From NCBI GenBank assembly GCA_020091685.1, contig CM034606.1:18740695-18804694 (forward strand): 64,000 nucleotides of DNA, read 5' to 3'. Shown piece by piece: positions 17,906-46,882 of this stretch. The notes under the pieces were generated by a model. That model saw only the letters and a program-made list of their open reading frames with translations. It searched no databases and was not told where the DNA came from. Position numbers and translations under genes: made by a program. Source of the stretch: Lutjanus erythropterus. Its lineage: Eukaryota; Chordata; Actinopteri; Lutjaniformes; Lutjanidae. The number at the start of each line of letters is the position of its first letter. The first letter of the stretch is position 1.

Positions 17906-17945
17906 GCGGAATGCGCGCGGGGGCGGCAGAGAGATCACTACAAAC

Positions 17946-18170
17946 ATGGCAGCCGCAGAGCATGTGGATGAGGGAGACACAGAAGACGGCGCACAGCGTT
18001 CAACAGAAGCTGACGGTGACGGTCACCCCTGGTCTTACTTGGAAAGTATGTTCAGGTACCTCGGGATGGAGGGAAATTCCTACCGAATGAAGTGCATCTT
18101 ATGCCTTCCAAAGTGCCACGAAATAAAGGCCTTCAGGAACTCACTGTCCAACCTCAAAAAACACATCGAA
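17946..18170 (+). pseudogene. first exon of Tol2-like transposase (BED region), rest deleted
   Basis: Seventy-five codons run from ATG (context AAACATGG) to a GTAAGT donor at 18171, ending exactly on a codon boundary. An acidic, poorly conserved start (residues 1-26) is followed by HPWSYLESMF (27-36) and MKCILCLP (48-55). The CxxC pair is at 50 and 53, and SNLKKHIE (68-75) brings the first zinc-binding histidine at 73. Known Tol2 transposase has the same order (HPW-YL, MKCVLCLP, SNLRKHIE) and then a second histidine a few residues on. Here that second histidine would lie past the splice site, so the zinc finger is incomplete within this exon. No RNase H-like catalytic domain follows within the element. 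The call is firm by motif order; activity as a transposase is excluded. Confidence 0.85.
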
Positions 18171-18236
18171 GTAAGTGCATTAAGTAAGCAATGTTATTTC
18201 ATGTGGCAGGAGGGATTTAAAAGTTTTAGCCAACAT

Positions 18237-18331
18237 TACGGGCAAGTTGCTAACGTAACGACGTGCTAGCATGGTTGCGAGCTAGTAGCAAGTTGCTAAC
18301 GCTATGTGCTAACGTTAGCAACTTGCCCGTA
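18237..18331. repeat. 20-bp perfect inverted repeat in the hAT interior
   Basis: TACGGGCAAGTTGCTAACGT (18237-18256) is exactly reverse-complementary to 18312-18331, with a 55-base loop. The 14-mer GCAAGTTGCTAACG occurs a third time inside the loop at 18288-18301 in direct orientation. It lies just after the transposase exon donor. Confidence 0.85.
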
Positions 18332-18367
18332 TCACACGTGTGGTGGTGTCATCAACAAATAAACCTA

Positions 18368-18368
<1 letters not shown>

Positions 18369-18437
<69 letters not shown>
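18369..18437. repeat. (CA)n microsatellite, 69 bp
   Basis: Uninterrupted CA dinucleotides inside the Tol2-like element, so the array expanded after or was carried by the insertion. Confidence 0.97.
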
Positions 18438-18440
<3 letters not shown>

Positions 18441-19126
18441 TGTTCTGCAGGAGTGTCAATAAACAGGGTTAGCATCTTAACTCGAACGAGGCAGTTTTCC
18501 TCCCACATGATACATTTTTAATATCAAGTGCTTCACTTTTTTGAAAAATACACAAATAAATCATACAAAATCTGTAACTTGAAGTTAAGCAATAGGCTAT
18601 TGAAAATGTGTCTGTTCAAGCTCAGTGTCCATGTTTTAGCTTTAAACAATAGATAAAATATAGTTTGTTTGTGTGGTGTTACTGTGCCTCAGCTCATGAG
18701 GATTCCCCCAACATAGTTAAAAAGTGGAAAAAGTGGTTCTTATGTTAAAGACGTTGTTTATTTGTTGAATGGTATTCTATACCACATTTCATTCACCTGA
18801 AAAAGTGAAATAAAAAACAAGGAGAGAATAATTTTGGGTTGTTTGGTTTCCTTTCATGTGTACTATAAAATACTTGTACTTGTACTTTTGATACTTGAGT
18901 ATATTTTTTCACAAGATACTTTTGATACTTAAGTACATTTAATGTGAGGTACTTTAAGACTTTTACTCAAGTAATATTTTTTTAGGTGACTTTAACTTTT
19001 ACCAAAGTCATTTTCAGTTATGGTACTTATACTTTTACTTAGTTATTTTTTTCAAGTACTTTATACACCTCTGGTCCTGACCACCAAGGCGTGGGTGTCA
19101 GCTGAGTGCTTTGGCAGTAGACCTTC

Positions 19127-19328
19127 TTCATAGCAGACGTTTTGATGTCACATCAGGACACAGGTGTAATTAATAACATTAGTAATGGCTGCATTCATTT
19201 GAATTTACCAGTTCCAGATCTCTGGTGTCGTCCGTGCTGCCTCACTGTTGGTTTACTGGGACAGATAATTAATGTTATTAGTTCCACCTGTGCTTTTCCT
19301 GCCACGACAAGTCAAACTGTCTGCTGTG
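19127..19328. mobile_element. foldback MITE, about 200 bp
   Basis: Left arm words AGCAGACGTTTTGATGTC, ACACAGGTGTAATTAATAACATTA are mirrored in reverse complement by the right arm (read inward: CAGCAGACAGTTTGACTTG, GCACAGGTGGAACTAATAACATTA). Arms are about 60 bp and imperfect, with a short spacer near 19200-19255. It sits about 45 bp beyond the target duplication of the Tol2-like element. Confidence 0.6.
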
Positions 19329-20169
19329 AAAAAAAGCCCACCACCAAACAGCTGAATCCACTGGTTGTGATATTATTGTTGATAACTTTGTTTTTACCAC
19401 AACTTGTTATTACTTGAGGTTTTACTTTACATTTTACAAAAAACACACACAGGGACTACTAATCAGTGTCATCATATATTTGGATCAATATAGTATAATT
19501 ATATCTACTGTTTGCCTATAAACATGTAGTAGGATAAGGAAATATTCATTAATCTGACTTGTATATAATAACACAGTCAGTCAGTACTGCAGTTTGCCAG
19601 CGAGGCTTATTTTCAGTTCATGACCTCTAAATATGGCTTGTAAATAAACAGTTGAGTATCTGGAAAAACAAAAGGATAACGGCTAATGTGTGTTATTTTC
19701 CCTGTGGGAGAGGGCTTAGAGATTTTGAATAAAAACCTTTCTGTGAGTGGTCAGAGTCTCAGGAGCACAAGTCGAGTGGATCATCTGCAGGAACGGGCGG
19801 TAATGGTCTGAGATCTGACATTAAGAAACAGACTTTCGAGTGCAGTCATTTGGCGTGTCTTGAGACAAAAGTGAGAAACACTTAGATGTTTACAAATTCT
19901 TCTCTAGCATCATTTCTATGTAGAAATCGTGACTACCAAGAACAGATTTGGTGACATAGTTGGATTTTGGGTTAAGCCTAAAAAGAAAAACGTGAGAAGG
20001 AGTTTAGTTTGAGCAATGACAATTACTTCAGACACTTTGGGCACCCTTTAAATTTAAGTTAAAATCCTTCTAACCAAGAGTTGGTTACCTTGCTGTGAGT
20101 TGAATATGTGCATCTCATCACCTCCAGCTCCTTATATAACATCACAATGACTGCTCCTTCATATTTCAT

Positions 20170-20575
20170 TACTCCCTGCAATAGTTGAAACTCCTCTACT
20201 GATTAAAAAAAAAAAAAAAAACCAAAAAGTTAGCTTGTCTCGTTTTTGCACATATTTAACCTCAGTGACAAACATATTGCATTTCCTGTTACTGCTTCAC
20301 AATAAAAGCCACTCCATGTTTCACCAGTTAAACAGTTTAAATGTGATGCAGCTGCGGTAAAAATGTTTGCATTACCAGTGACTTAATGCAGCTTTGATAT
20401 GGACTTAAGTGAGTGAACAATAAACACTGAGGCAGATGTCTTTGAGATAAAATCACAGTTATAACAGTAGTAACAGTCACTTTCTGTGAATCCCTTGTGC
20501 ATTTGAAAGCATTTGAATCCAGCATGGAAATGACAGACTCAGAAGTCACACGCAGTCACAAAATGTAAATGCATT
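20170..20575 (+). repeat. dispersed repeat pair, copy A
   Basis: Shares a run of words in the same order with 42455-42850: ACTCCCTGCAATA, a long A run, AGTGACAAA.ACATTG, TTT.CCAGT.AAACA.TTTTAATGTGA, GCAG..GTA..AAATGTTTG, GATATGG, GAACA.TAAACACTGAG, and GATTCCAG or GAATCCAGC. A paralogous repeat of about 400 bp is the simplest reading. No long conserved frame supports coding. Confidence 0.6.
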
Positions 20576-20659
20576 ATTTAAAAAAATGCCAACAAAAATA
20601 ATATCAAAAACTTGGTTTGATTTGATGATTTAATGAAAAATAGTTTCATGTGTATTTTT

Positions 20660-20890
20660 TAGAGGTGCAGCTAACAATTATTTTCATTAACCATTAATTT
20701 GCGTTTTCATGATTGATTGATTAAAAGTTTAGTCTTTAAAATGTCAAAAAATTCTCATTACAGTTTCCCAGAGCCCAAAGTGACGTCTTTAAATTGTCCG
20801 ACCAACAGTCTAAATCAAAATCATTCTTGATTTACTATCATACATGATAAAGAAAAGCACCAAAGCCTGACATTTAAGAGTCTAGTCTGG
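20660..20890 (+). repeat. CTGCAACTAA-type teleost repeat
   Basis: Starts TAGAGGTGCAGCTAACAATTATTTTCATTAACCATTAATTTG, continues with TTTCCCAGAGCCCAAAGTGACGTCTTTAAATTG, and ends near ATGATAAAGAAAAGCACCAAAGCCTGACATTTAAGA. This is the fullest copy of the family in the window (others at 5335, 8754, 10070). Confidence 0.6.
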
Positions 20891-22523
20891 TAAACATAAG
20901 CACCTGAGAACTTATTTCTCTGATTTGCTTAATGATTGATATCCTGGTTGAGTGATTGTGATTGTCAGCAGCTTCTCTCCTGCACATTGTCAAGTGAACA
21001 TGAGCAACAGAAGTATGCTGCTTCACCTTCTGTCTCTCTGTCCGTCTTTGCTTTTTAATTTCCCCCTTTGTTGACTTAATATCCTTTGTTATTGTATTAG
21101 TTTCCATGTCGGTATTTTCCCTCTACATCTTCTCTCTTCGCCTTTCATAGCCCGCCGATCACTCTCTTCATCTTTCTCGCCCCCTCCCGTGTCCCAAACC
21201 ATCTTCATCTGTCATTGTCCCTCAGGTCTCGCTCATGTTCCCCCAAAGGAGCCACGGTCTGAGAAGTTTGTGGCCAGACAAGACTGGTCTCTGCTGGGAA
21301 GCCCTTTGTTTAGCCCCTCCATATAAACACACGGGGACAGATCATAAGTGATATCACGGGCGACATGTTGAAACCTTAAACAGTGGAAAGGACTTGCCTT
21401 CACCAGTCACTCAGAATTAGAGAGCCTGACAACAGAGGGTTGAAGGGGAGAAAAATGGACAGCAGGAATCCTGAGCTGTCAGTTTTTGACAAATTATGAG
21501 GACATCAAATTGACATTTTCTCTTTATTTCATGGTGATTTACCCTTCCTCTTTAGGAAAGTGCCCTCTGCTTAAGGGATCATAAATGGAAAACTGTGGCC
21601 AGAGAAGCAGCCTTTCACCTGTCTCAGAAATGGTCAGGGTCAAAGTTGACAGGGGTCGCAGGAGAAATTAGCCGTGTGCATGTTCTCACATGACAGCCGG
21701 GTGAGGAGAACAAAGGCGGGGTGTCTTTTGAGGTGAAACCCTACCTATGCGAGCTGCGCTGCTGCCGTTTCCTCTTCCTGCGGGACTAGGCCTGGCCTGC
21801 TAACATGGCTGCTCTGTAATTACTCTGACACACAGCCTCTGACCATCACTGCCACGCTCCCTGTCGATCAAAGCAGCCCGTTCTTGGCTAGGCGTGCGTG
21901 TGGGTGTGAGAAATACAGGGTTTATGCGATTTAAAAATGCATGCTAGGCGATAAGAACAAAGACACACAAGTCAGGAAATACATCTCCTTGTTATAAATA
22001 GATAAAGAGGATCTTTCTGAGCCTTGTTCAGCCTTCCAGAGTCTAGTCATTACGTCCATTTCCACACTCTGCTCCCATAACACAAAGAAAGAGAGCTTCT
22101 TTGTTACACCGCAGCTACTTTTGATAAGAACATTTTGCATATAAAAGCATTTAATTAACGCAAACATTATGAATTCATCAGTGTTATCCTGCGATGTCTT
22201 GACTTTTCGTTGGTCTTTTTAGAGGAGTGAAACACGGAGAGGAGGCTGAGAGCAGCAGTGGGAAGCAGCCAGTGGGCAGGATGGCAGTGGCTGTGATATA
22301 TAGAGATTGCAATGCATAATGTGATTTACTGCTGTCTTAAGGCCAGCCTTGGCCCTGCTGTTTTTATTCACACATATAGCACACACACACTAATGGTGTG
22401 CATTAGGAGGCTGACATTTAGGCTGTGCATGCGACACAGGTGGTGGTTTGTTTTTCTGTGCAACCTCTGTGACGCATGCATGGGGGCAAGGCAGGGCAGT
22501 TTGAAACAAACCGCTACTGGAAA

Positions 22524-22620
22524 TAGGGATGTCACAATAACAGAAATGTAGTCAATACAAATGAAGTGAAATTCCTCCATTCTCTGTACTAAATTTGATA
22601 CCAAGGTAAAAAAAAACAAG
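22524..22620 (+). mobile_element. hAT-like fragment (TAGGGATGTCACAATAA)
   Basis: TAGGGATGTCACAATAACAGAAATGTAGTC followed by TTTGATACCAAGGTAAAA fits the left part of a fish hAT-type non-autonomous element. No right end found. Confidence 0.4.
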
Positions 22621-23370
22621 AATAAAATTCAGCCAGTTTCATTTTTCTTTGCCACACGAAATAAAATCTCTTCTGAGCTTTGTGGACAAAAGACTGAGGG
22701 AGATATTTACTAAGGCGGACGCAAGTTATAGTCAGGGGAGGATGCTGCCAAAAAACCCAAACGATACCCAACGCCAGGAACATAGTTGGCTATACACTGA
22801 TGGCAGCTGTCCCAAGCGAAAATAATGGTAACCTGTATTTCAGGATTAAAAGGATAACACTTTTAGATGGATTGTTTATGTAACGTTGGCACAAATTGAA
22901 ACTCACACTACGCACACTGAGTTGGAACTGTTTTCTCCTTTTGTCTGAAAAGTTTGATCTTCCTTCGGCAGACTAGAACATTTGTAGGCGTGTAGCTGTC
23001 CCTATCGGGTCCTCTATGGTACTGAAATTTTGGAAAATACACTTACTCATTTTTTTTGGCCAAGCATTAGATGAAATAATTGATATCACTCTTAAATCTG
23101 TATGCTAAATATGAAGCTACTGCTAGCATCTGGTTTAAGACTGGAAACAAGGTGATTCAGCTGGTCTGTCTGTGTCCAAAGGTAACAAATTCTGCCTACC
23201 AGCACCTCTAAAGCTTACCAGTTAACTCGTATCTCTGTTTTTTCATCTAAACTTTATCAGAAACTACGTTTAAAAACCACAAAAAGACTCCACAAGGTTA
23301 CTGGACCTGAAGTCAAGTACATGTATTCCTAAAATATTGTGTCTTTTAAGGTAGACTTAATATTACTGAT

Positions 23371-23886
23371 TAGCGGTGCAATGATCCATCTATCTTGATC
23401 GATGTATCAGTCCAGTTATCACCAATCCAATATGATTGAAGTGAAAACTGATTCATGTCATCATCTATAAAATACTCCTTTATTTTGAAATTCCCACTGC
23501 ACATCTACGTCTGTGAACCTCAACAGTTATCATTGAGCCATATTTTATACTCTTGATTAATGTTTGTGTTGTTAAGCCATGTTTTATGTGGGTTAGTGGA
23601 CTCAATTTAAAGTCAACCTGACTGCACTTTAACCGTTACAGTTATTTATGGTCATTTATGTGTTGATGTTTTGCTTTTATGGCCAAAAGCAGAAGAGAGA
23701 AAAGAAAGGAGTTGCAGCATCTTCTGAAAGTGCTATGATATTGTCTCACAGCTGTCACAGACCTCTGAATTGAATCTTATCAAAGTCATATTGTGGCAGA
23801 CTTTGTGATATCAGGAAATATCATATTGTTGTCAAAAGAATTGACGTAATATCGTAGTGCGATGGACCTTGTGATTTACACCCCTA
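23371..23886. mobile_element. non-autonomous hAT-like transposon, 516 bp
   Basis: The left end reads TAGCGGTGCAATGATCCATC and the right end reverse-complements to TAGGGGTGTAAATCACAAGG, typical of the fish TAGGGGTGTAA hAT group. Flanks are TTACTGAT (23363-23370) and TTACTGGT (23887-23894), a 7 of 8 match to a target duplication. The interior contains GATCGATGTATCAGTCCAG and GTAATATCGTAGTGCGATGG words and no transposase. Confidence 0.75.
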
Positions 23887-25734
23887 TTACTGGTAATAAT
23901 AGCCTCACCTCATATGGCACAGTGCTGTATGCTTCCCACCACATGCATACAGTGTGTCACTTATCTGTCTGATTCATGTTAGTACTGTTGTTCCTATAGC
24001 TTGAGGACCTCTTTCTCTTCATGTGACCTCCTGGTTCCCAGTTCAAAGAAGAGCAGTGATAGTGAGTGATTTATTACGACACAGTCATGTTGAATGGATT
24101 ATTCAGGAGACGTCTGTTTTTGGGTCTGATAATCAAACTACTTTTGATGTGAAATGTTTTGAGCTTAAATTTCCAAAGCACCGCTAAAACACTGGAACAG
24201 CAACAGAAATCCGTATGCAAATTCACCTCTGCATGCACATGTATGGCCTTTAAATAATCCCTCTGGGATTTGAAAGTGGAGGAGAAAACAAGGCAATTAA
24301 ATTTTTCCAAGCAAAGGGTTTGGTGCTCAGAAGTCGTCCCTGTCTTTGTCAACAGTGTTCGCAGGCAAATTGCATTTTTTGTTTTCCTATTCCAATTACT
24401 GCAGGGGATGGACGCTTTCTGTCTTCCTCTCTGTTCTGGGAAAACAAAGCAACACACAACAGCTGGGAGCTCCCTCTGGTTTTTAAAGGTGACTCTTGTT
24501 TGTACCAGATATCGTTAAACCAGAAAACGGCTGAAAATTACATCCTTTATCAACTCTTTTTCATTTTGTTGTGCAGTCCCTTTTTGTCTTAATTACATAA
24601 TGATATATTTATGTACGTCATTATGCTGCATGAATGGTAATCACTGAGTCTTTATGCACGGACGTTTACCATTATTATGGACTGTGATGGTTTTCTCCTC
24701 CCAGTTATATTGAGGGAACGTCTTATCTGTGCTGCAGCGCTCGAGTGTGTCAGCTCTAACATCTTAATATCAATGTAGTGCCTCTACAAATTCGGCATTC
24801 AATATCCCGCACAGAGCTCTTCCTGCAAATCTTCCTATGGGACATATATAATACAGCTGAGGTGCTACAGGTGGAATCCCTCATGAATAATGGAGACGCT
24901 GGTGTGTTGTTCATTTGTTGTGTGTGGACACGGATACTGTAGCTGCATTATTTATGGGACCAAGACTTAGCTGGGAGGTGGCATTCTTTACCCTGATATT
25001 CATAAATCAATAACGAAAAATCCCTCAAGCTGTTTTTCACAATACACAATGCATTATTATACATTTACAGAGCTCTTGATCCTAGGGCCACAATATTTAC
25101 TCTCTCCAGATCTGGTCATTTGTGTGTATCGCTGAAAATTACTTTTGTTGCAACAGGGGAATGAGATTGGCTGCAGGAAATAATCTGACATGTTTTGACC
25201 TGTCTTTTCTTGACACGTGACTAACAGTCTTTCTAGTCTTGTGGCTAGAGAGCAGAGGGGGAGAGGGCCTTTGTCCCCACTAGCTCGCCACTCTGCGGAA
25301 AATGATCTGAAAGACCCAGGCGTTCTGGGAACAACCATGCGATCAGCGCCGTCTCCTGAAACTACCCAGTAAAACTTGGCCCTAATCCTGCTTTAATAGT
25401 AAACAACAGCTGTAGGGCACCAGCGTACTCTGATTAAGAAGGGAAGGAAATAAGCTCAGTGTTATATCTCACCAGTGTGCTCTACACCCCTTCAAACACG
25501 TCTCCTGCTTTTTTCTTACTGTACATGTTTGCTGGTGGGGAAAGATAAGAATATATGGTGATGTAAGTCTGGCCTGGAGGTGACTGAATTGCGTAAAAAT
25601 ACAATAAATAAAGGGATTTGGCTGTAGCTGTACTGTTTTTGATGTGCAATGGGTATTCTACATAATGAATCCACTATCTCTATATAGCATCGCATTCTAG
25701 TGAGCCCTTTACTCTTTCTGATCGCTTGTTGAAC

Positions 25735-26460
25735 TCAACTTGTCTCAATAATTTAATGTAAATATAAAAGTTTTATTTATTCAAGTTCATTTAATTTAAC
25801 TTAAACATTTCTAGTATTTATTCTCAGAACACTTCAGAACTTGTAAACATGAGTTGCTCTATCTTGATGTTTTTGACTTGAAATGATGAGTTGACTGAAT
25901 GTATTTACTTTTGGAATTCAAGCAGCTCAATAAATTAAGTTTCTAAAGAAACGTGATCAGCATATTCAAGTCTCAAGTTTTTGAATCAAACTCAAAATCA
26001 AAGCCACCTGTAACTCGAAACTTTGAAAATTAAAAGGTTGCAACTGAAATACTTAATAACCATTATTCACTTTCACTCAAATGAGTTTACTCAACTTTAA
26101 ATTGTTGATAAAACTTTTTAAATAAACTTAAGAGTTTGAGTTTTTGTCTCAAAACTAAAAAAATCTATTGAAGTAAGTCGCCTTGAAATTTTGAGATGTG
26201 TCAGCTTCTTCGCTTTTCTGTTTGTGTGTGAAATGAAGAACTGACTTCTCAATCTGTGAAAATTTGTTTGTTATGTTTGTCTAGTGTGTCTCAGCTGTTG
26301 TGGCTTCATATTTTCTCAAGTGCAAGTGAATCAATATCAAGTTTATTTGACTACAAAATTACTTCAGCTTGTCTTTCAAATTCAGTCAACTTAAAATATT
26401 AAGACAGCCCAGACACAAACTGTTTTTAAGTTAAAACAAATAGTTTATTTTTGCAATATA
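25735..26460. repeat. AACTTGA/TTAAGTT-rich repeat
   Basis: About 700 bp built from degenerate words CAACTTG, TCAAGT, TTTAACTTAAA, ACTCAA and GAGTTTG, closing with TTTTAAGTTAAAACAAATAGTTTATTTTTGCA. This fits a fish element made of short alternating direct and inverted AACTTGA-like units. Limits are approximate. Confidence 0.45.
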
Positions 26461-29456
26461 CTATATACTCTGAAGTTATATGTTACAGGATAAGCAGCAA
26501 ATAAATGTGTATTTATGACACACCGAAGCTGTGCAGAGGCGTGTACCCTGCACATACATCACACACACAAATACACATTTACACACGCTCGACAGAGGGA
26601 GTTGGGGTGTTTGGTTTCTTTCCTTTTGCGTAATGTTTTTTCAGGCATACCGGAGTCTTCTCGGTCTGTCATTGTTGAACTGGGTTTAAAATAGGCGAGG
26701 GGTATTTGGAGGCAGCTTAGTTGCAACTGCAACACACGTGATTGAATTAGAGTGCTGTCAGTTGGGTCCATTATAGAGATCCCTTGGATATTTTCCATCA
26801 GCAAGTTGGTCGGGAGGGTGTCTCCTGTTACGCTATTTTTCTCGGAGTGTTTAGCTACACGGAGCTGATCGATTGGCAGATACTGCATCACAATTTACTA
26901 AAGCATGCCATTTGAAAGAGACATCTGCACTGAGGGGTTTGATGAAATGCAACTGGAGACCACAGTTATTGTATATTAAGTGGATAGTGTGCACAATGTT
27001 GTTTGCTTGCTCCCTACAGGAGAATTTCCAAGCAGGTCAGGACTAAATTTTGACTGACAGCAAGTTTAAGAGATCAACAACTGAAAAACCCAAAGTATGA
27101 ATGACACAGCAAGTGAAGCATGCCATGGGTCATTGTTGGCTCAAGAGGTGTAGCACCCGTTGGCCGCTCGCTGTGCTGCGCTCAAGTATGATCACATTAA
27201 ATCTCTTTACGAATCGTGGCATTCTTAAGTTACCCTCGCTCGCACAGCTCGATCCTTGTCATTGAGGTTTCCTTGAGACTTGGCTGCTGTCGGTGACATT
27301 AGACCAACGCAGGAGAATATATGTCTTGTAAAGCCCAGGCCGCGAGGATTGAGTGTGTACCAAGGTTGCACTTGGACTATTTTTCACCCACCGCCGAGCT
27401 AAAAATAATGTGATGGTATTTTGGTATTTTGCCACCTGCATTATTAGAACGCCCTTCCTTTACCTCCCGCTGCACCTTTAATGTGGAAATAAAAGTTTAG
27501 AAAGGTGTAACCTTGACATTTTAGTTGTTTAAGAAAAAAATGAAATTTTATTTGTATTTAAAATGTGTATCTGGACTCGGAAATGCACTCTTAGATTTGT
27601 GAATGTGTATCTGCATGTGAAAATCATTAACCTAGTTTATTTTTCACACAGTTTGTCCTCTCTGTGTTCCTATGTTCTGTTCTCCCGAGCTTAAATCGGC
27701 GTCCAGCTATTTGTCTCACTTTTGGCACAGATTGTTCACTTGTAGTAGGTTACTGTGAAGCCAACTGCTAAGCTGCTTCGTGCTGCCATGCTTCCCTGCT
27801 AATTTCTTTAACGGCAATTATTATTATATATTTACAGTATTTGAGAACTTGTGGCATGTATCATATATCATGTCTTTAAATGTCATGTCATTTCACTTTG
27901 TCAAGTGGCCTTTTACACACTTAAAATTCATTTTCCGCACCTGTTTATTTCTTGGAATTCAGGCTCATAAACTGGGATATTGGATTTGGGAGGTGGTGAA
28001 ACACTGGACACGCTGATCATACAACACATGCTGTGCATTTACATGTACACTATTATTTGGTAGCAACAAGATTAAAGTTATCCTCTGACTATTGCAGCTG
28101 TCACATGGACTCCTTAACCAGATTATTTTAAGGTTGAAATTGGACCAAACGTAATCTGATCAACAGACGTACGGTGCTTTGCCCATCAGTCTTCTGAATT
28201 GCACTTTACTTTTTGTTACTTTTATTTTTGTCAGTGCTTTGATTTTATGTACACTTCAGGAAACTCGTAGTGTGAACTGAGTGTCTGTAAAAAGCAGCAT
28301 GGCCAGCGGTGGGAAAAACAATTTACATTTTGCAGCATCTTGATGCTATTGTTAGCCTTCCTCACACGTTCCTCTGATTGTGATTGTTGATGATGTGAAT
28401 GTGGTTAATTCACAGTCGAGCTACAAGGTGCTTCTAATTTCTGCTCACGACCAAAGCAATGTGGATTTAGTCAAATCACACAGGCTAAGAAATGTAAATG
28501 AACTCAAAATAGCATCAGCTGGCTTGATGCTGAGGATTTTTGCTCATTATTTACACATTTTTTTGTTTTATGTACAGTAAGTAAGACCCAAACCAGTGTT
28601 TACATCTGCTATAAACTGCTCATCACTTTTCTGATTACTCCACACAATCATGTTCCGACTCTGGCCACATCTCTCCCACATGCGTCCTGCATTGCATCTC
28701 CTTTCTCCGCCTGCCTCTGTGTCTTTTTCTCCCTGTTGCTCTGCTTATGTCCCTCTCTCTCTACCCCCGTCCTCCAAAGCTCCCCTCCCACACACTCTGT
28801 CTCACACACCTACTGTCTGCCCGCCAGGTCTCTGTTGCTAAGCGACAAGCGATGAGCGATGGACTGCTCTTATGAGAGCGACGTTTGTCCATCATGATCT
28901 CATACTTGCCTGAGCCGTACGCACACACCGGATTTCTCTTGAGGAGTTTTAGCGGATTTCTATCTAGAGAGATTAGTGCTGTTTGTGCATTTTTATTGCA
29001 TACATCTGCATTTTTTATGCTTTTACGGACCCATTAATAAAAATTGAGAATTTAATTGATAAAATTTGCAAGCCTGCATTTTAAAATGGATGCAGGGGCT
29101 TGCAACCTCCTGGAGTAATTATTGAATGAAAAATAAAATCACATTGCAATTAGAGCCAGTCTGTGATGTTTGGAATTGTGCCTTTGAAATTTTAGTTTAT
29201 TTATTAACAAAGATTTTTTTTTTCCTATTATAAGTGCTTCAGTAAAAGGAGCCATGTTTTTAAACTGCATTACATGCTGGTGGTGCAAACCTTTTTCCAT
29301 TATTTGTTTATAATATCAATTTAAATAATTTATTTACAGATTTTGTTTGCTCTAAAATAGAAAATGTTATTCTTGGAGGGTATGTAATAATATTCAAATT
29401 TCCACAGTATGCTGTAATCTGAAGCTGCTGCTGAACATGCCTGAACCGCCGCTGCG

Positions 29457-29484
29457 CCCCTCCCTATCCCTCCCCATCCCTCCC
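29457..29484 (-). other. candidate G-quadruplex
   Basis: On the minus strand there are six runs of three or four G separated by spacers of one to three bases (C runs at 29457-29460, 29462-29464, 29468-29470, 29472-29475, 29478-29480 and 29482-29484). This satisfies the usual four-run quadruplex rule with very short loops. On the template strand of kcnma1 it could affect polymerase passage. Confidence 0.6.

Positions 29485-30613: not shown

Positions 30614-30617
<4 letters not shown>

Positions 30618-30676
<59 letters not shown>
30618..30676. repeat. (CA)n microsatellite, 59 bp
   Basis: Uninterrupted CA dinucleotides. Confidence 0.97.
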
Positions 30677-30678
<2 letters not shown>

Positions 30679-35228: not shown

Positions 35229-35285
35229 ACATAATAATAGTAATAATATAGTAATAATAGCAATAGTAATAATAGCAATAGTACA
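35229..35285. repeat. AAT/AGT trinucleotide microsatellite
   Basis: Imperfect AATAAT, AGTAAT and AGCAAT triplets in a row for about 57 bases. Confidence 0.85.
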
Positions 35286-35989
35286 ATGCAATATGTAAAT
35301 GAAATACAATCAACAAAACAATATAAAAAACAACAGGGTTCAAAAACTGTAAAGTTCTAAAATAATTGAGTGATTTAAAATTTGTCTGGAGGGAAAAAAA
35401 TGCATTCAACACGTTCAGTAGGACCCGGTGCTGCACATTCTGAATGTAAACTGTATGTATGCCAATTCCACATAGTACCTTTAACGTCTTTTGTATTTTA
35501 TCCTATGAGCCATCATGAGTAAAATGTACTGAGACTAGAAGCAAAATCCGACTCAGGACCCAATTGTACTTGCACAAGCTTAAGGGATATTTAATTACTG
35601 TTTTAAAGAGCAGCGTGTTGTCATGCTACAGTGCTTCTTCTCTAATATGCACTTTTATTGTAAGATTATATCAGAGAATATATCAAGAACACAGCTTCCC
35701 AACCATGCCGCAATGTAGTTAAAAACACATTCTGTGTTTAAAAAAAAATGACCTTAGCTTTTGGCTCTGTAGTGCAGCGTGCAGCTGAGAGTGTCCTGCT
35801 GCTGATGGAGCTCTGTTAGCAGAGATATGAGTTCTGCCACCGGCTCCATGGTTAGGAGGTTCAGACAGGCTGCGAGCTCGGAGGCACACTATTACCTCCT
35901 GATTCATAGGTGTGGTAAGCGATGCCGACACAAACCGAGCCTCAGATGAAATAGAAATCAATCATTGCCCTTAACACACAGATACTGTA

Positions 35990-36019
35990 CACACACACAC
36001 GCACACACACACACACACA
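35990..36019. repeat. interrupted (CA)n microsatellite
   Basis: CA dinucleotides with a single CG interruption near 36000. Confidence 0.9.
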
Positions 36020-36805
36020 AAATTGTCCAGCGCCCTTGAATGAATGGAAGTCCCGTTTGTTAGCACAATAATAGAAAATAGAGTCAACCTTCAGGGTATA
36101 AGTGAACAGATAGAGGTTGGTGGTTCTAAGCAGCAAGAACATCACAAGGACAACAATGTCATTTTGAGGAACGTCACAGTGGCATTTAGTGCAAACATGA
36201 CAATTACTCCGAAGAACCACCAAAGTACAGCGCGCTCTAAGGCAGAAGCAACACTGGACGTATATTTTTTTGTGATTTCTAAATACTTTAGGATGTCGTT
36301 TGGCCATTTTCTTTCATTTCCTTGAATACTCCACATGTATATTCATCCGATAACACCCATTCACATGCATGTTGTACAAAATGGTGGACGTTAGCCTCAG
36401 GTGATTGTGCCACTGATGGCTATGGATAAAGGCTGATGTCATTCAAGCATGTTACGTTTTTTTTTTTCCCCCCTTCCCCCTGCTTTCTGATAGGATAAAA
36501 TAGTATGTAACCCCCTCTGGGAAAACATTGTATAGGTCAGAGTCTGGGTCAGAACACATCTTGGTTTAGTCACTGTACCGTATGTAGCATGTTTTCATTA
36601 TACAGAGAATCAAAGACTTGCTTCAAATAATTTATGTAAACTGTGATTTCCGTCCTCGCTGTGATAACCGCCGCTTCTAAATCCTACTCGTGTCAGCAAT
36701 CACGTTGAATGGCATTTGTCTGGTTTATTAAATGGACCAATTTGAAGCGTTTCCCTTCAAGTCAGACCTCATTTGCATAGAAAACAAGAATGTGAGCCGC
36801 TGTGT

Positions 36806-36819
36806 GTCACCATAGTAAC
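36806..36819. promoter_or_regulatory. candidate RFX X-box
   Basis: GTCACCATAGTAAC fits the full RFX consensus GTNRCC, 0-3 base spacer, RGYAAC with a two-base spacer. RFX factors drive ciliary and some neuronal genes. A motif match alone, in an intron, is weak evidence of function. Confidence 0.3.
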
Positions 36820-37139
36820 AAGCCATCTCTAGATTGATGCAAAATATATATATAAATTACACCTGCCATGAATTAAATGACTAATTATCGCATGTGCACA
36901 TGCGGAGGAGAATGTGATTTGTTTGTGTGTGTGTGGTATGTAATGGCTTCACATTAACGACACTTTTTCCCTACACACTCATTTGTTAAATTTGCACTCC
37001 TCCATCTACATTAAAGTAATTATGTTGTCTCTTATTTGTTTGTCTGAAGCCATAAATCTTTCTAATGTCCAGTTTCCGTGGTGATTACAGGGGCAATTAT
37101 CTGTGCCTGCAGTCAAATACAGTAGAGGAAAAGATCATT

Positions 37140-37640
37140 AGGGCTGAGACAACACATGTATTTACTGATTTGATACTAGTATGATATTTGGGTGCTGATT
37201 TGATGTATTGTGATTCTCATAGCTACTTGATGGAGATTTTAAATTTTATGAAACAGTCTCAATTTATCACTGATGTCTATATATTTCCTATATAACTGCA
37301 AGAAGACTGACTATTTCTGGACAGTTGTTCTTAATGGCTGCCACTGGGTTGGATTCTCCTCGAAATCCGATGACAGAGGCCTGTGTTTACATTTTCCTTT
37401 ACATTTTTCCTCTATTTTTTATTTTTGATGTTATATATTGCAGTTATGGCAGTGGGAACACTGGGCCCTCAACGAAATATAAAGTTTTGTTGTAACAGCT
37501 TTACGTATTTTCAATATTATTATTTATTGTGATGTTTGTTTGCTTTTTTAATACTAGACCAGGTAAAAATGTTGAATCATACACTTCTGGAGACTGTATA
37601 CTATGATTAGTCTTTCCAAAAACAATGCACATCACATGCC
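37140..37640. repeat. GATATGTATTG interspersed repeat, copy 3 (with hAT-like left end)
   Basis: It begins TTAGGGCTGAGACAACACATG, a hAT-type terminus, and has TGATGTATTGTGATTCTCATAG. At 37505-37600 it follows the interior of copy 1 at 3415 closely, including the ACTAGACCAGG and ACACTTCTGGAGACTGTATA words. The right terminus was not found. Confidence 0.5.
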
Positions 37641-39660
37641 AGTCAGTCTTTGAGTTTTATTTCAGCAGCACCATTGCTATACCACATATACAAGTAGTAA
37701 ATCAATTATTTTTTGTAGTAAAGTGGCACATTTAACTGTTCCTGCTCAGCAAGCTGATGCTGCAGTATAATAATAATGATAATAACAAATAAGAAGATAG
37801 ATAAGATTTTAGGCAAAAATGAATAGAATCCCTGAAACTGCACACAGAACAAATGTGAGTTTTGAACCTTTGAGGTTACTGTAGCTGGTCAGTGTGCAGT
37901 AGCAGATAGAGTTAGCAATGTGAAGTCAGCAGCTATAAGTTTGTTTTATATTATATACATATATGTATTACATGTATACATAACATAAGCTTGAAAATAT
38001 GAGCAAATATGTCATTTTTAAACATGTGAAGTAAAAGGAATCCATTTGTTGAGATCAGCAGAGGAGGCGCCAAGCTTTTTGTCAGAGGTGGAGAGCCTGA
38101 CTGACAGCTGCTTGGCGTGCTCAGGGTGAATTATTAGGCTTCTCTGACAGGAGCAGAGGTGGTTGTTGGGTGCGAAATCTAGTGATGCGGTATCTGCCAT
38201 CGCTCTGGGTTTCTAAGAGTAATGGAGAGTGCAAAGAAAAATTATGATATTGATTTTCGAGGTCTGAAACTGCTGTGGTGCCATTTATTGCTCAGCCACG
38301 TCGCAAACTAAGTGAAACCTCCTGCAAGTTAGTGTTATTTGGTTTGTTCTCCTGACTGTTAAAGCTCCTAAAGCTCTCAGCTGCCAAACAACCCTGTCCA
38401 GAGGGAACAGAGATACAACCGTACATTAGCTCATTTTCTCTGCTCTTTAGCCGGCCTTTTTACACCAGAAACGTTCTGATGAAAACCTTCATTTGGTTTC
38501 TTTTAATACATAGCCTACATCTTAAGCATGCCCTCATTTAAGCCACTGGCCGTCTATTATCTGCTGACATTAAGATGATAAAACTCAAAGACGTTACGGA
38601 TGACAAGTGCTGACCTTTCAATCTCCCACAATTCACTGCGTCGTCTATTTTTATCCCGGACCACTGGGGCTTGAAATGTTGTATCAATGGAAGAGGTGCA
38701 GTACAGCATTATGAATCAACAGGACAGTACATTCAAGTTTTTCCTCTCTATCATTCTCCCTCCAGTCGTAGAGAAGTAACATTAATGCGGATGTGTCTTT
38801 ATTCTGTCCTCTTTTGTTTGAGCAGAGGGACGTGAAAGAGTGTATGTCTTAGACAGCATGCGCTGCCAGGCTTACATTATGCTTTTTCATATCACTGTCT
38901 TATTGTTTCTCTTCGAAGAGACATAGCAATTGGGACAAAAAGCTTACTTGGAGTGCAGCCATTTTGAGGAATGAGTTCCTGTCCTGTTGTGCAGATGTGT
39001 GTGCTGTCCAGTGGCGATGCAGAGAGATGTAAACCCTTTGGCTTGTTTTCCTGTTTGCCGACATTGTGGATGTCATCTATTTAGTTCAGTGTCCACAAAT
39101 CGTCTAATCCTGCTCTGGCCTGCAGTGCCCAACAGGCCCGGCACACAGGGGCAGCACAGGGCTAATGTGATTCTGGAGATGAACAACCTTTCCAGTGGCA
39201 CTGATAGCTTTGGTATCCTTGATCAAACTGTGATATACTGTATTTGGCAGCCTTTGGGTTGTTTGGACTTGACTGACCTCACTCTCATAGCTTCTTGGTT
39301 CTCTTGTTGCTGAGATCTGTGTTTTTCTAAAAAATTATTTTACACTCCTGAGCACAAGCCTGCTTTGCTCAATAATGACTTAGGGTAATCTCCCACCTTT
39401 CATTTTTAAAACTTGAAGGAAACAATTAGACAGTCAAAAAACCTTCCGTTGCCGAACCTTCATACTGGGTTGGTGACATTGTGTTCTTACTACTGGGGAG
39501 AATAGAGTGGTGCAGGAATGAGCCCTAAAACCCAGCTCTGTTTTTAGCCTTATTGCTTGAATTAAGTCTGTGCTTAACACAAGCGTAAGAGATTTTCATG
39601 TTTTGTTCTGCAACATTAATACCTGTGAATCTGGCAACTTTTATGTGTCTTAAAAAAGGA

Positions 39661-40308
39661 GGTTGCCAACAAGTGGCTAAATGAGTCTACAGTGGTTGTT
39701 GCGGCCATTAAACGTTGGGCACTTGTCACTTTGTCATGCACCTGTAGTGTAGTTTGCTCATAGCCTAATGTTTGCATGTCAGGTGGTGAATTTACGCTCA
39801 GTCATAAAAGTGGCATTTGATTATTTTGCTGAACAAAACGTGTCAGTATCATAAACTTTTGTGTGCCAAAATTCGACAGAAAAATCCCACTGGCTTTTTT
39901 TTTGTGGAGGTAACCAGAGCGATGCTTACTTCTGAGTTGGCCTACAAAAATATGTCACCCCTGCAGCGCTCTATGCGGGCAAAATGTAAGGGCTGTAGGT
40001 TTGTTAGCAGCTGTTCATGCCACTGTTCAGGCAACTATTTTGCATTTTGAAATCCCCGGACAATCGGTAGGTGGTTGGATCTCTGATTGTCTCGTAGCAC
40101 TTCTGTCTCACAGCAAGAGGATCTACGACCCGAATCCTAGTTGCTAAGTGGCTAAATGAGACTAAAGCGGTTGTCATAAATATTAAACGTCATCATGCCA
40201 AACACCCGTCACTCAGTGGGGGTGATGTTGAGTCACATGACCGTGATGTGGTTCATTTATAGTCTAATGTTAGCTTATTACTTCTGGCAATTGCTTTTAT
40301 GCTTCAAA
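39661..40308 (+). repeat. composite repeat: two GGCTAAATGAG units around an older repeat and SINE piece
   Basis: Unit 1 (39661-39778) and unit 2 (40141-40298) share TTGC(C/T)AA..AGTGGCTAAATGAG, AC..C.GTGGTTGT or AGCGGTTGT, ATTAAACGT, CACTTGTCACT or CACCCGTCACT, and TAG(C/T)CTAATGTT. Between them lie a stretch with GAGCGATGCTTACTTCTGAGTTGGCCTACAAAAATATGTCACCCC, known to me from fish repeats, and a SINE-like left piece (40094-40140: GTAGCAC, GTCTCACAGCAAGAGG, ACCCGAATCC). The layout suggests duplication of a repeat-plus-SINE block. Confidence 0.55.
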
Positions 40309-40563
40309 ACACTTTCGCCTCACAGCAAAGACGGTCTGTGGTGCAAATCCTGGTTTAGACAGGCCCTTTCTGTATGGAGTTTGCATGTCCTGTGCTTGCG
40401 TGGGTTAGTGAGTCCTCCGTTTTCCCCCACCATCAGAAACATGTATCCCTGACCAAGACACTGGCTTAGAGCTACAGTTGGTCCCCAGGCAGCTGTCCAC
40501 AGCTCCTAATACTAAAATGGGTTAAATGCAGGCGCTAAATCTCACTGTGTAATTGAATGTGCC
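40309..40563 (+). mobile_element. tRNA-derived SINE (old copy)
   Basis: CACTTTCGCCTCACAGCAAAGACGG is followed by a degenerate B-box-like GGTGCAAATCCTGG. Then come CCTTTCTGTATGGAGTTTGCATGTCCTG, GCGTGGGTTAGTGAGTCCTCCG, TTTTCCCCCACCATCAGAAACATGTATCCCTGACCAAGACACTGGC, TTGGTCCCCAGGCAGCTGTCCACAGCTCC and AAAATGGGTTAAATGCAGGCGCTAAATCTCACTGTGT. This order is that of a common fish SINE. It is diverged, so an inactive relic. Confidence 0.7.
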
Positions 40564-41504
40564 AAAAAATCAACCTTTACCTTCACTAACCTCAGCACAT
40601 AAAAAAGGTTTCGTAGCTTATTTTGCAAGTCAACATTTCATCTCTAAAAACATGACTCTGGATGGCAAATGTGTTCAAATGGGTTCTACTACACCACATG
40701 TGCAGATTTGCTCTGCAGCCACCCTGCTTTTCTAAAATCACATCTGAGTGGTGATATGAAAATTGTGTTGATAGCGGTGACATGTATGGGTGCCGTCCTG
40801 AGCAGATTGCATTCTAGGCAGTACCTGTGTAATCCCTAAACCAAACACATGGCAGCCTAGGTAAGCCCTTAACCTCGGGATCAGCAGGCTTTGGCCGCAG
40901 AGTCCCATCATATCAAATCAGAATGCTCCTCTTTGTTTTTGCACTTTAATCTCTTTGTTTTTGCTGTCATATATCAGGGAACATTATTTATGAATGTTGC
41001 AGGTTTAAAATAATTTGATCATAAGAACATTGTGACACTGAGTGTGGGGATTTCTCTGTTGCAGAGATACATCACTGAAGTCACATGTCCCTTCCTATGG
41101 CCTGGTAGTAATTAGCCTGAACCATTTGACCTCCTTAGTTCTATATGGTTCAGTCGGCATGACCTATACACAGAAATAACAGCTTTCCTCCACATGGTGT
41201 AGTCAGATTCAGCCTTGCACCTGCGTATGTGTGGATTAGTATGTGAAGAGGCTCCTTCTTTTTCCTCCCTTTTGCTGTGACCCAGTGTAGGTCTGTAACC
41301 CAGGGACACAGGGTAACTGTACCGGCATTAAAATAGCAAACAGGGGGAACAGAGCATGTTATGAGATTCACTAGTTTCACGTCTCCTTGGGTTAGACTAT
41401 AAATAGCCTCTCACACTGGAATAGAGTTTTCCCCAGCGATGCGGACGAAAGCCAGAGGAACAGCTGCGCTTAAGCCAAGTCCTGTTAGATCAGCGGAGTC
41501 ACAT

Positions 41505-41925
41505 GGGCATGTTTCTGTCTCCCTGTCCTGTCTTTTCTTTTCTGTCCCCGGTCCCTCACTCTCCCTTCCCATTTCTCTTGCTCCTAATCTGTCCCGCTGT
41601 CTTGTCTTTCACCTGCTTGTTTATCTCGCTGTCTTGCCGTATCTTTGTCTCTCTGTCACTGTCTTCCCCCTCTGTCTGTCCTGTGTTTGCTCAGTTTCCT
41701 GTCTCTCTTGATGTCTTGTAATTTGTGTCTCTCTGTCATTATTTCTGCCCCCCTCCTTGTGTTATTGTCCTGTCGTTCTATCCTGTGACTCTTGAGTGGG
41801 TGTCCTTCTTCGTCTCCCATAGCCTCTGTCTCTTTGTCCCTGTCCTCTATTCTCACTGTCACTCCCTCTCTTTGTCTTTTTTTTCCTGTGTCATGTTTTA
41901 TCTGTCTTTTTCTTGCTCATTAGTA
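41505..41925 (+). repeat. long pyrimidine-rich CTGTCT/CTCTGTC tract
   Basis: Roughly 420 bases are dominated by C and T on the + strand, with dozens of degenerate CTGTC, TCTCTGTC and TTGTC units and isolated purines at unit ends. The apparent open frames on both strands here are low-complexity artefacts (runs of S, L, C, F, P or of R, E, K, D). Confidence 0.75.
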
Positions 41926-42439
41926 CCAGGCCTCCCCTGTGTACTATGTTAATTGGTACAATCCTAATATTAACAGTGTTCATCTGTCTTGTTATAAAAA
42001 GATTTCTTGAAGTAGGAAGATGAACTACATAGATTTTTTAAAATAGGAATTTTAACAGGCATCACATCAACATTTTTCTACACATTTGTTATGTACCAAA
42101 CCTAGCTTGCCCAGGGTACGTTTGAATCTCAGATTTTATAGAAGTGCACAGGCATCTCTCCCCTCAGTAGAGGAATGTGAAAACACCTTTCTAGTGACAA
42201 ACTTTGCACAAATACGAGTCAGTAAAGTCAAGGTCAGACATTTTGGGGCACACAAACGTAAGAAAAACACATTTTTGTCCATCAGTAGCGATTGTAACCA
42301 TGATTTGATTTCACGCTCTGCATGTCACAGGCACTTTTTCACACAACAGCAGGACACAGTAAAGTTGTTTACCTCCCTGAGAAGTTGGAGGTGTGCAGTC
42401 TGTCGCCCGCAGTTCGTCATCTAACAGCTCACTGTGGCC

Positions 42440-42850
42440 GCTCATTGTTTGTTTACTCCCTGCAATATTAAAAAAAAAAAAAAAATGAAAATGGCTGTTG
42501 TCTTGTTTTGTAGAAACATTTTTGATGAACAATCACTGTCAGTGCTAATTTCAGTGACAAATACATTGAGTTTCATAACAACCTCATGTTTTGCCAGTCA
42601 AACACTTTTAATGTGAACTTGCAGCAGTAGGAAATGTTTGGTTTGCAGTAGCAGTAACTGAATACAGCTCTGATATGGCTGTGGGAGAACAGTAAACACT
42701 GAGATAAAATTAAATTAAAACAACACAGAATTAGATACATGAATTCTCTCCTGTGAAACTGTTGTGTGGAACTCGGCAATTTGATTCCAGTGCAGGGATG
42801 CAGACTCTGCTAACAGTGAAATCCACTATGTAGAGACGTAATTACTGAAT
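42440..42850 (+). repeat. dispersed repeat pair, copy B
   Basis: The partner of 20170-20575: begins TTTACTCCCTGCAATATT and a 15-base A run, then CAGTGACAAATACATTGAGTTTC, CCAGTCAAACACTTTTAATGTGAACTTGCAGCAG, CTGATATGGC, GAACAGTAAACACTGAG and GATTCCAGTGCAGGGATGCAGACTC. Confidence 0.6.
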
Positions 42851-44089
42851 GAATAAACATAGAATAACTGTAGGTGGAAAAAAAGGGCTCTGTTTTTATG
42901 AAAATATTAAAGATACTACCTTAAACACAAAAATGAAAGATTGCTTTTCCTGTAAGTTCATTCACTGCCTTCTCCTGTGCGACTTGGTGTGATACCATAT
43001 TCATTTAAAAGTCTTTGCTTCTTTTATCATATCATTTTTCCCCTTTTGAATTTGGATATAAACTCATGTACCAACTCCTGCTGCTGCCTCTCTGCCCCTC
43101 TCTCGCTGCCTGTCTGCCTCTCTGTCTGTCTCTGTCTTGGTTTGACATCACAGGTGTGTATATATAGCCAGCAGATGGATTCTCCCATGACAGGCTGCTT
43201 CAGTGGCTTTCTCCCTCGGCCCAGGCCCACCGCCGGCCACTCAAATGAACTAGAAGCAATTCCTTGTTTACATTGTCTCTTCTGATCTGCCCAACCATCA
43301 TTTTATGACTGCATCCATTATTCATGTGTTCCCCTCCACCACACACATGCTCACATGCGCACACAGTGGAACATCGCTGCTGCTGAATGTGTTTTTGTAG
43401 CCTCCATGTTCAGGTGTGCACCAGTCAAAACTGCTGTTCCCAGATCAACTCAGCATCGGTGAAGGTCTATATGAAAACAAATACAAAACAATGAAATCAA
43501 CATCTTTTTCATATTTTGAAATCCTTGCATATCGTCTAACTATGCTGTAGTTTGTCTTTTTTAGCTAATTCATGCAGACATTGATGTTTCCAAGATGTGA
43601 TGCAGCACTAGCAAACCTGTCAGTTGGCAGTATTCACCAAAAAAATTGCTGTGACAGGATTCATGTCTGAAGGCATTTACAGCATGCTTTGACAACAAAT
43701 CTAGTGGAAACAGTAGTAAGAAGAGCTAGATAGTGCTAGTGCTACTGTGAGACGTGACTTGCACGACATACAGTAGTTCTGTGATGTGTTCCTACTGTGG
43801 TATATGTCTGTGGAGTGCGGGGCTGGTGGGGCCCTGTGGCTGAGGAGTAACTGCTGAGCACAGACTAGCGCATACTATGCCACCACAACATGCCTGAAAT
43901 GCTATCGAGCAGACACACAGCCAATCAGAGTGAAACCTTAGACATCCTTTTGCACGGTGACCTGCATGCACACACAGTTTGCTGAGTATTTGCAGCATGT
44001 GATAGGCAGGATGCATGCTGGCTATGTAGTCGAGAAGTATAGATGAGGTGTGGTGTGTGTTTGGGAATTTAACAAAATTTTAATAGAGT

Positions 44090-44577
44090 GTCTATTTGCA
44101 CCCAGGTATGAATACATGACAGCCATTCACCTATTCACACCCAACCTTATTTACCTTATTTTAGCTATAAAGAGTGATAAATTCACCATCAATAAGAGGT
44201 AGTGGTGGGTAAATGCACTAAGCGCATGGCTTTCCTGCCCTGGGAGACTGTGTGACAGTAGTATGAAATTACATGTCAGCAGTGCATGTTGTTTTCAGTG
44301 GCAAGTTAAGTTTAGGCAATGAAACTGCTTGGTTCGGTTAAGGCAACAAAACTCCTTGGTTAGGTTTAGGAAAAGATCATGATTCATCTCTGTCATGCGA
44401 GTGACACATTGCCTGTTCACATCCTGGGTGCAAATAGCACTGTTGGCTACAGGAACCCGGGTACTTGTCTCTGCCATGCTAGACTATATACACTGAGGTG
44501 TTAAATGCCACATAGTCTATTCCCCCCTGGGTACACATTGCCGCATTGGCTATTCTAACCCAGATGCAAATAGCATC
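44090..44577. mobile_element. inverted-terminal element (CTATTTGCACCCAGGT)
   Basis: The left end CTATTTGCACCCAGGTA (from 44092) matches the reverse complement of the right end (GCTATTTGCATCTGGGTTA, 44556-44574). A further copy, CCTGGGTGCAAATAGCA, lies inside at 44423-44440. The interior has TTGGTTAGGTTTAGGAAAAGATCATG, a very common fish repeat phrase. No transposase. Confidence 0.6.
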
Positions 44578-46717
44578 AGCTGAATTGTAATCATTCAGCC
44601 TGCATTTTCTGTTGGATATGCATATTTAAGTCTTTACCGCTTACCAGACCCTCCAGGAGCTTGAACTTTGAAATATTCCAAAAGAAAATCAGTCTGCTTC
44701 CGATAATTGCAGCTGTCATTTATAATCAGGCACTGATTTAGTCTGACTTTCAAAGTCAAACTAAATGCTTCAAAATCGCACTCATGATGGATACTGCAAA
44801 AGTTTTTGGGTCTCCAAACACTAAGCTATTTAATGAGTATATAAAGAATAAGTAACTAAATTATCTACTGCAGTACTGAGAGGCCCTACGGCAGGAGCAG
44901 ATAATGATCTTATGACTAAGTCAGGCTTTTTTAGGGCCAGTTTATTGGCATTATTATGGGGTTTGAATCAAATTAGGAAAATGGCAGCTGTGTCCATGCC
45001 ATATCATTATGAAATGTAATCCAATTTGACCAGACAATCCTTTTGAAATGGACAGAGCACTCTCTTGGGCTCATCTGTAATAGCACTGCTCTTTAGCCCC
45101 TGCAGAAATACTCAAGTTGCAGTCTGGTTTGTTTTGGTGTTGCACGTGGGCACAGACAATACTGGTCACCCCTGTAACTGCTTGGCCTTTGGTTTGGTCC
45201 TGAAATGAGATGTGTTGGGTGCAACAGCAAAAATAAAATCACTGTAAAAGCAATTTTTTTTTATTTATGTCATCGTTTTTGGATGTTATGGGGTCATCCA
45301 AACCAACTGGCAATGTGACATGCACAGTCCAGGGAACAAATCTCACTCTGTTGACATGGCACATAATCTGTTTTGATGGCTACTTGTCGGATGTCACTTT
45401 GAGAAGGGACATTGTAAAGTGCTGCATGTGGTAATATGAGCCTGCCTCCTTGGAAAGGAGCAACGGGTGACCATCAAGAGGGTTGAAAGTTATTGCAATT
45501 CCAGGGATTCTTTGTGAACACCATTTGCTGGGCCTAACCCTATGGGTTTATGAGGCTGAGGGTGTCACAAACAAAACTTTACTGCCTCTTTGTGCATGTG
45601 TGTGTAATGCATCAAAGTGTAGGATTTTGTTGCCTCGAAGGCTGTAGAAGAACACAGGGAAGTCTACTCGTTCCCCTTTCTGCCAGCAGGACAGTGAATG
45701 CGAGTGCCTGCTTGTGTCAAATCAGGAGTGAGTGAATGGCTGGAGAGGAACAGCTGCATGCGGTGACTGTGCCAAGCAAAGCATGTCAATGAACTGCCAT
45801 GCAACTCTGCTCACTCAGTTGGATACAAGAAGGAACGTTCAAAGGCCTGCACGAGAACGACAGCCTAACTCTGTCTACCCCGAGGAACAATTAACTTAAA
45901 GAGTCATATGTGTAAAACGGCATGAGTAAGTACACTGTCGTTATCTAACACACATGAACTCAAATGCATTCAAACAGACATATTGAACATATAGCAGATG
46001 GATGCCATCATGGCGTGATGGCTGCAATTACAGTCCCTTTTTTTTTGCCCTCGGAGGTTGTAGCTTGTCATGAATGTGGACGTGCACGAGCTCAGGAACA
46101 CAGAAGCCTTCCAATTAATATGATACTGTTTTATAGCAGCGGCTGATATGATTAATTTGTTTTATTTTGTTGATTACATTCAGCAAACTTTGTTATTTTA
46201 TCTTTACATGGTGAAAATATTACATAACTAGTTGCAGGTAAATGAATGAACGAATGAATGAATCGCTCTTTCTGACATCGGTGGCCAAGAGGGCATCTTT
46301 TATAATTTTGTTCATTTTGGTGATAAGCCAGTGTTGAGTCAAATTTTGACATGTTATCAGTTTTTTTATTGACTGTTGCATGCAACTAGTTTTACAAAGT
46401 TGAGAGTTTTACAACTGTTGGGGCCCATTGTGGAGGGCTCTATGCCAGACGTCTCAGCTGTTTCGACCAACTAAAGTTGTGTGAATGTTTCACTGTGTAA
46501 AGCCAGCCTTAGAAGTCTCTATGCCTGCACATGGTATCCTGCAAGAGAAATAGATTTGCCCAAAGCCAACAATGTCTTTCTATCCTCACTATTAAATGCC
46601 ACTGCAAGTTTGTGCCTTTTAATTCTCCCCTTTTTTATCCCTAAAGCAGACCATGTTCCTGTGTTTAATCTTTAATATTTTACATTTCCTTACAGAGATT
46701 ATTATTTTTTCTTCCAG

Positions 46718-46882
46718 GAGGCTCAGAAGGTGAACAACCCCGCCAACAATCAGGCAGCAGACAGACCGAAGGGTCCTGATGAGAAGGAGGAGGCCCCAGC
46801 CAGCGAGGTGGGATGGATGACTTCGGTCAAGGACTGGGCCGGTGTCATGATCTCTGCTCAGACACTCACTGGCAGAGTTTTG
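46718..46882 (+). CDS. kcnma1: BK channel alpha subunit (Slo1/KCa1.1), coding exon 2
   Basis: This 165-base exon encodes 55 residues of the pore-forming subunit of the large-conductance potassium channel, which opens on depolarisation and cytosolic calcium in neurons and smooth muscle. The peptide begins [17 protein letters not shown], continues [10 protein letters not shown], and ends [18 protein letters not shown] then TLTGRVL. From VGWM onward I recall no difference from mammalian Slo1. It covers the end of the cytosolic S0-S1 linker and the first turn of S1. The aspartate of VKDW (46832-46834) corresponds to D99 of mouse Slo1, which helps bind magnesium between the voltage sensor and the gating ring. 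The variable linker is one residue longer than the mammalian one I recall. The acceptor is TTATTTTTTCTTCCAG and the donor TTG|GTAAGT; both boundaries fall between codons (phase 0). No other exon of the gene is seen in the window. The paralogue (a or b) is undecided. Confidence 0.95.

Follow-up and report, generated by a model that had tools for sequence, protein, structure and literature searches.

In adult zebrafish tissues, 7511 assembled transcripts are reported to have their 5′ ends in transposons; intronic DNA transposons, a hAT element included, provide testis-specific start sites, and an intronic hAT-N38_DR in ank3b is listed as an alternative promoter (PMC9341505). A study of early zebrafish embryos gives 25,082 transposon–gene chimeric transcripts, 21,187 of them with DNA transposon sequence (PMC12006353). 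The present analysis concerns 64,000 nucleotides of the Lutjanus erythropterus genome (contig CM034606.1, positions 18,740,695 to 18,804,694; hereafter the window), where an element resembling Tol2 of medaka and Tgf2 of goldfish sits within intron 1 of the BK channel gene kcnma1, in the sense orientation. A first-pass annotation had suggested that the first transposase exon of this element could be spliced in frame to the channel. The TATA-like sequence, ATG, donor, phase, orientation and acceptor strength support such a fusion as mechanically possible; a functional weight for it is not supported. The locus is very probably a young non-autonomous Tol2-like insertion whose exon is intact by youth, whose in-frame fit is a by-product and whose transcripts, if any, would be unselected noise.

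The likeness to Tol2 and Tgf2 is judged from published descriptions of those elements. The ends of the window element begin CAGAGGTGTA, as do Tol2 end primers, which start CAGAGGTGTAAA in published form (PMC4818426); 8-bp duplications flank the element; exon 1 would hold most of a BED finger, as described for the known elements (PMC4818426); and the Cx2Cx19H spacing in this exon parallels the Cx2Cx19Hx4H pattern given for Tgf2 (PMC4890040). Unlike Tol2 and Tgf2, the window element is internally deleted, with exons 2–4 and the catalytic part gone. As in the zebrafish alternative promoters, an intronic DNA transposon could here give a start site and a first exon, skipping that of the host (PMC9341505). 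The zebrafish cases are assembled transcripts, some with nanoCAGE or chromatin support (PMC9341505), whereas the kcnma1 case is known from sequence alone. Like CSB-PGBD3, the element is an intronic transposon that may be spliceable in frame to its host gene, although the kcnma1 join is hypothetical. In CSB-PGBD3 the host exons come first, the element contributes an acceptor and a poly(A) site, and conservation of the fusion over 43 Myr or more is described (PMC2268245), whereas at kcnma1 the element would come first. The earlier statement that host–transposase fusions by this route are established is thus only partly upheld: transposon-first transcripts are documented in zebrafish, as alternative promoters and not described in that source as transposase fusions (PMC9341505), and CSB-PGBD3 is host-first (PMC2268245).

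The transposase exon and its fit to kcnma1 exon 2

The element spans 1431 bp of the + strand (17643–19073) and has the terminal inverted repeat of a Tol2-like element (CAGAGGTGTATA...TATACACCTCTG), with CAGAGGTGTATA at either end. The 8-bp target-site duplication of a hAT/Tol2-like insertion, GTCCTGAC, flanks it on the left (17635–17642) and on the right (19074–19081); with this duplication counted in, the inverted arms occupy 17635–17654 and 19062–19081. The hAT C-terminal dimerisation region is absent. Transposase exon 1 (17946–18170, + strand) opens with an ATG in a context of A at −3 and G at +4, continues for 75 stop-free codons, and is followed by the phase-0 donor GTAAGT (18171–18176, + strand), which is present in 36 of 37 aligned family copies. 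With C50, C53 and H73, it encodes the Cx2Cx19H portion of a putative zinc finger of BED type. A TATA-like sequence, CTATAAATGC, lies 48 bp 5′ of the ATG (17898–17907, + strand) and is identical in all 37 aligned copies; its role as a promoter is putative. The sequence thus bears out the first-pass description of this exon as sense to kcnma1, equipped with TATA box, ATG and GTAAGT, and ending on a codon boundary. Splice sites were scored with a weight matrix. Among the 3946 GT sites that the window holds on its + strand, 50, the element donor included, equal or exceed the score of that donor. A Pfam search with transposase exon 1 alone gave no match; the joined exon 1–2 piece reached 13.5 bits for PF02892 (cut-off 20.6) and a higher 20.2 bits for zf-C2H2_12 (cut-off 27.3).

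On the host side, kcnma1 exon 2 (46718–46882, + strand) encodes the S0–S1 linker and the start of S1. Its translation, EAQKVNN...TGRVL, corresponds to residues 62–115 of a solved BK alpha chain (E 4.6e-18), and it was the sole kcnma1 exon found in the window with a human BK query that takes in the N-terminus and ends shortly after S6. The first codon is GAG in phase 0, as the codon-boundary start proposed earlier for the acceptor at 46718 requires. A match to kcnma1 exon 1 lies at C16:18739888–18740070, some 0.6 kb before the window begins (18740695), and its coding part ends in phase 0 (AAG/GTATGG); intron 1 is therefore a phase-0 intron of 47,341 bp. A second kcnma1-like exon 1, belonging to a paralogue (C20:19362238–19362411), is also in phase 0 (AAG/GTGAGT). 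The element donor and the exon 2 acceptor are 28,547 bp apart. Among the 1689 AG sites from 18171 to 46718, the exon 2 acceptor ranks first, so that no acceptor between donor and exon 2 outscores it. The sole acceptor–donor pair at the loosest threshold tried, which would define an alternative exon at 21556–21700, was rejected since this exon contains a stop.

Joining 18170 to 46718 leaves the frame open throughout kcnma1 exon 2, both exons being on the + strand. Since the host intron is in phase 0, the frame would match for any element that is inserted in sense and has its exon intact, and the sole coincidence is that of a sense orientation with a phase-0 intron. The fusion product would be a BK subunit without S0 and with an incomplete zinc finger: residue 78, the His of the Hx4H spacing, becomes Gln, in agreement with the first-pass expectation that the join would not provide the second zinc-finger His. 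In the long family copy L009, this second His is supplied by transposase exon 2. Presumably an S0-less BK subunit would, on its own, traffic poorly. S0 is described as placing the BK N-terminus extracellularly, and S0 provided as a separate piece together with the rest of the channel is reported to yield functional channels (PMC12962649, citing Wallner 1996); since the two can be supplied separately, an S0-less subunit is topologically possible. The interaction with auxiliary beta and gamma subunits is described as occurring via S0 (PMC3984161). A genomic trace of the spliced exon 1–kcnma1 junction was sought at up to two mismatches and none was found, nor was a genomic copy of the transposase exon 1–exon 2 junction at the same threshold; both are weak negatives.

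What remains of transposase intron 1 holds two further features. A pure (CA)34.5 microsatellite (18369–18437) is likely to be polymorphic in length and would be handy for genotyping, and a perfect 20-nt inverted repeat (18237–18256 and 18312–18331) encloses a 55-nt spacer. An Rfam scan of the window at gathering scores gave no match; a bacterial promoter scan is uninformative for fish.

Age of the insertion and constraint on the exon

A DNA search of the 938-Mb genome, with scores for 40 of the 253 first-look candidates, gave 71 match rows, and the copy number is therefore a lower bound. The 36 further copies were fetched together with L009 and one fragment; L009 and L046, a partial match of about 200 bp, were excluded from the 37-row alignment, and L001–L008 duplicate copies already counted. 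Similar copies with internal deletions number at least 37 in the genome, the window copy included, and measure 1408–1559 bp. Exact 8-bp duplications were scored in 34 of the 37, the exceptions being L026, L031 and L035 (the start of L035 was set 3 bases early). The window copy differs from its nearest relatives, L010 and L014, by 0.07%, or about 1 base, and belongs to an eight-copy cluster in a tree that is poorly resolved (good support for 2 of its 34 inner branches). A segment of about 80 bp near 18618 is missing from this cluster and from L017, nine copies in all, and present in the other 28; its absence marks a sub-family. No empty insertion site was found elsewhere in the assembly at up to three mismatches. 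At roughly one substitution from its closest relatives, the insertion appears too young for its exon to have decayed, and the integrity of the exon is probably not due to use by the channel.

The long copy L009 (C4:46555000–46561000, reverse strand) is a 3815-bp element that retains the exon 2–4 segment lacking in the other copies, and it alone does so among the matches scored (117 of 271 candidates). The first residues of its exon 2, which begins in phase 0, are Arg-Ala-His-Pro. Its exon 1 has a deletion and an early stop, and the frame is apparently broken in the exon 3 region. Exon 4 of L009 scored 20.4 and 20.5 bits against the hAT dimerisation family PF05699 (cut-off 21.4), and no solved structure matched transposase exon 2 at E 0.001. 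In the search for an intact autonomous partner of this exact family, the best exon 2 match among the 117 of 271 candidates scored is L009 itself, and the other listed matches are at most 63% identical.

Exon 1 was looked for in eleven related transposase loci of the same genome (L048–L058) and found in seven of them (L048–L052, L054 and L055). In these related transposases, which are 53–63% identical, its last codon is always the homologous one, with a GT donor directly after it; no exon 1 match was obtained in L053 or L056–L058. Since these exons end at the homologous codon and exon 2 of L009 is in phase 0, the donor phase is inherited from the Tol2-like lineage. The exon is not special to the kcnma1 locus and is a family-wide leftover. 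The related loci include a Tol2-like lineage 63% identical to transposase exon 2 (L048, L049 and L050, on C9, C140 and C19) and another at 55% (L051 and L052, on C12 and C18). Both have open exon 2 frames (378 and 361 residues) and matches to exons 1 and 4, and exon 4 of one member of each (L050 and L051) passes the PF05699 cut-off, with scores of 23.4 and 27.8.

Variation among the copies was used to assess constraint on the exon. Of the 37 copies, 15 have an intact start, frame and donor, and the other 22 have a defect in at least one of the three. A one-base shift in an A-run near the exon end occurs in 15 copies; it clusters on the tree yet needs six changes there, which makes recurrence or exchange among copies a possible cause. 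Distinct codon changes comprise 25 replacements and 12 silent changes, compared with modelled neutral fractions of 0.655 and 0.307 (binomial p = 1). Variable non-CpG sites are commoner in the exon than in the remainder of the element (29 of 203 against 102 of 1205; Fisher p = 0.012). Indels are found in the exon (225 bases) in 22 of 37 copies, in the 5′ part (303 bases) in 11 and in the 3′ part (954 bases, CA tract excluded) in 31; the A-run and short repeats may be sufficient cause of those in the exon. Purifying selection on the exon frame, which would be looked for in a host–transposase fusion, was not found among the family copies and was rejected on these family-level counts. Because the counts fit neutrality and the exon is variable and often disrupted, it is not being retained for coding within the family.

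Several points weigh against the reading as a young, unselected insertion. The neutral expectation was built on assumed transition and CpG ratios, and none of the 37 distinct changes creates a stop, where 3.8%, or about one, would be expected. The test of constraint spans copies of the family, and its outcome applies at that level. No intact transposase of the exact family that could explain the recent burst was found among the 117 scored of 271 candidates. Finally, the window copy is intact in every feature that a fusion requires, and the acceptor of exon 2 is the best in the intron.

Readings of the locus and their meaning

The favored course of events begins with an internal deletion that took out transposase exons 2–4 but spared the ends, the promoter region, and exon 1 with its donor, as comparison with the 3.8-kb copy shows. 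Such an element then inserted recently into kcnma1 intron 1. The in-frame fit follows from two independent phase-0 boundaries, both observed: the ancestral one of exon 1 and that of kcnma1 intron 1. Should the element promoter fire in some tissue, the strong exon 2 acceptor would be the likeliest partner for the orphan donor. The resulting mRNA would encode a BK subunit that lacks S0 and carries 75 additional residues, probably as low-level noise without selected function.

The alternative that survives best lies at the quiet end of this account and overlaps it, so that the odds of the two are not exclusive: the element may be an inert intronic insertion from which no chimeric RNA arises, for which the chances seem about even. 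Young repeats are commonly silenced, the TATA-like sequence is the sole sign of promoter activity, and the spliced junction left no trace in the genome by the weak test above. Preservation of that TATA-like sequence in every aligned copy speaks against silence, as does the description of many zebrafish transposon sequences transcribed with genes (PMC12006353).

A cassette or poison exon is a far weaker candidate and would be quite improbable. Here transcripts from the kcnma1 promoter would include 17739–18170, using a T-rich acceptor within the terminal region, which scores 6.3 with the same matrix and could pair with the donor at 18170. The segment is 432 nt, a multiple of three, but internal exons of vertebrates are usually shorter, and two frame-0 stops lie 5′ of the ATG; inclusion would therefore truncate the channel, and 17739–18170 was rejected as a coding cassette. 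Least probable of all is a regulated alternative first exon, in which the element promoter would drive a tissue-specific (e.g., testis) transcript retained for its effect and a cytosolic 75-residue transposase tag would replace S0 and alter assembly or auxiliary-subunit coupling: every sequence part is in place, an N-terminus without S0 would be cytosolic and Kv-channel-like, separately supplied S0 is reported to yield functional channels (PMC12962649, citing Wallner 1996) and testis-specific start sites in intronic DNA transposons are described in zebrafish (PMC9341505), but the insertion is very young, the family shows no constraint on the exon, and 26 AATAAA motifs, four of them within the element, lie between the donor and exon 2.

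The young-insertion reading is thus retained. Most likely, function is absent, and a transcript is either rare or not made at all. If one does arise, it would best be understood as an infrequent transcript started in the transposon, of the sort described in zebrafish. The locus would be an ordinary young insertion with potential for chimeric transcription. At the level of the family, it is conceivable, although unlikely, that the element acts as a natural 5′ exon trap and that the excess of exon variation and frameshifts reflects selection that disfavors intact traps or favors disarmed ones. If so, every intact copy would be a mobile promoter with an ATG, a short open exon and a phase-0 donor, and insertion in sense into any phase-0 intron would give an N-terminally truncated, transposase-tagged host protein, kcnma1 being one case. 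A transposon exon that is open and in frame within an intron is weak evidence of domestication, since its age and the inheritance of intron phase account for it. If a fusion transcript were found, the kcnma1 insertion would illustrate, at a very young age and before any action of selection, how transposon first exons can tag host proteins.

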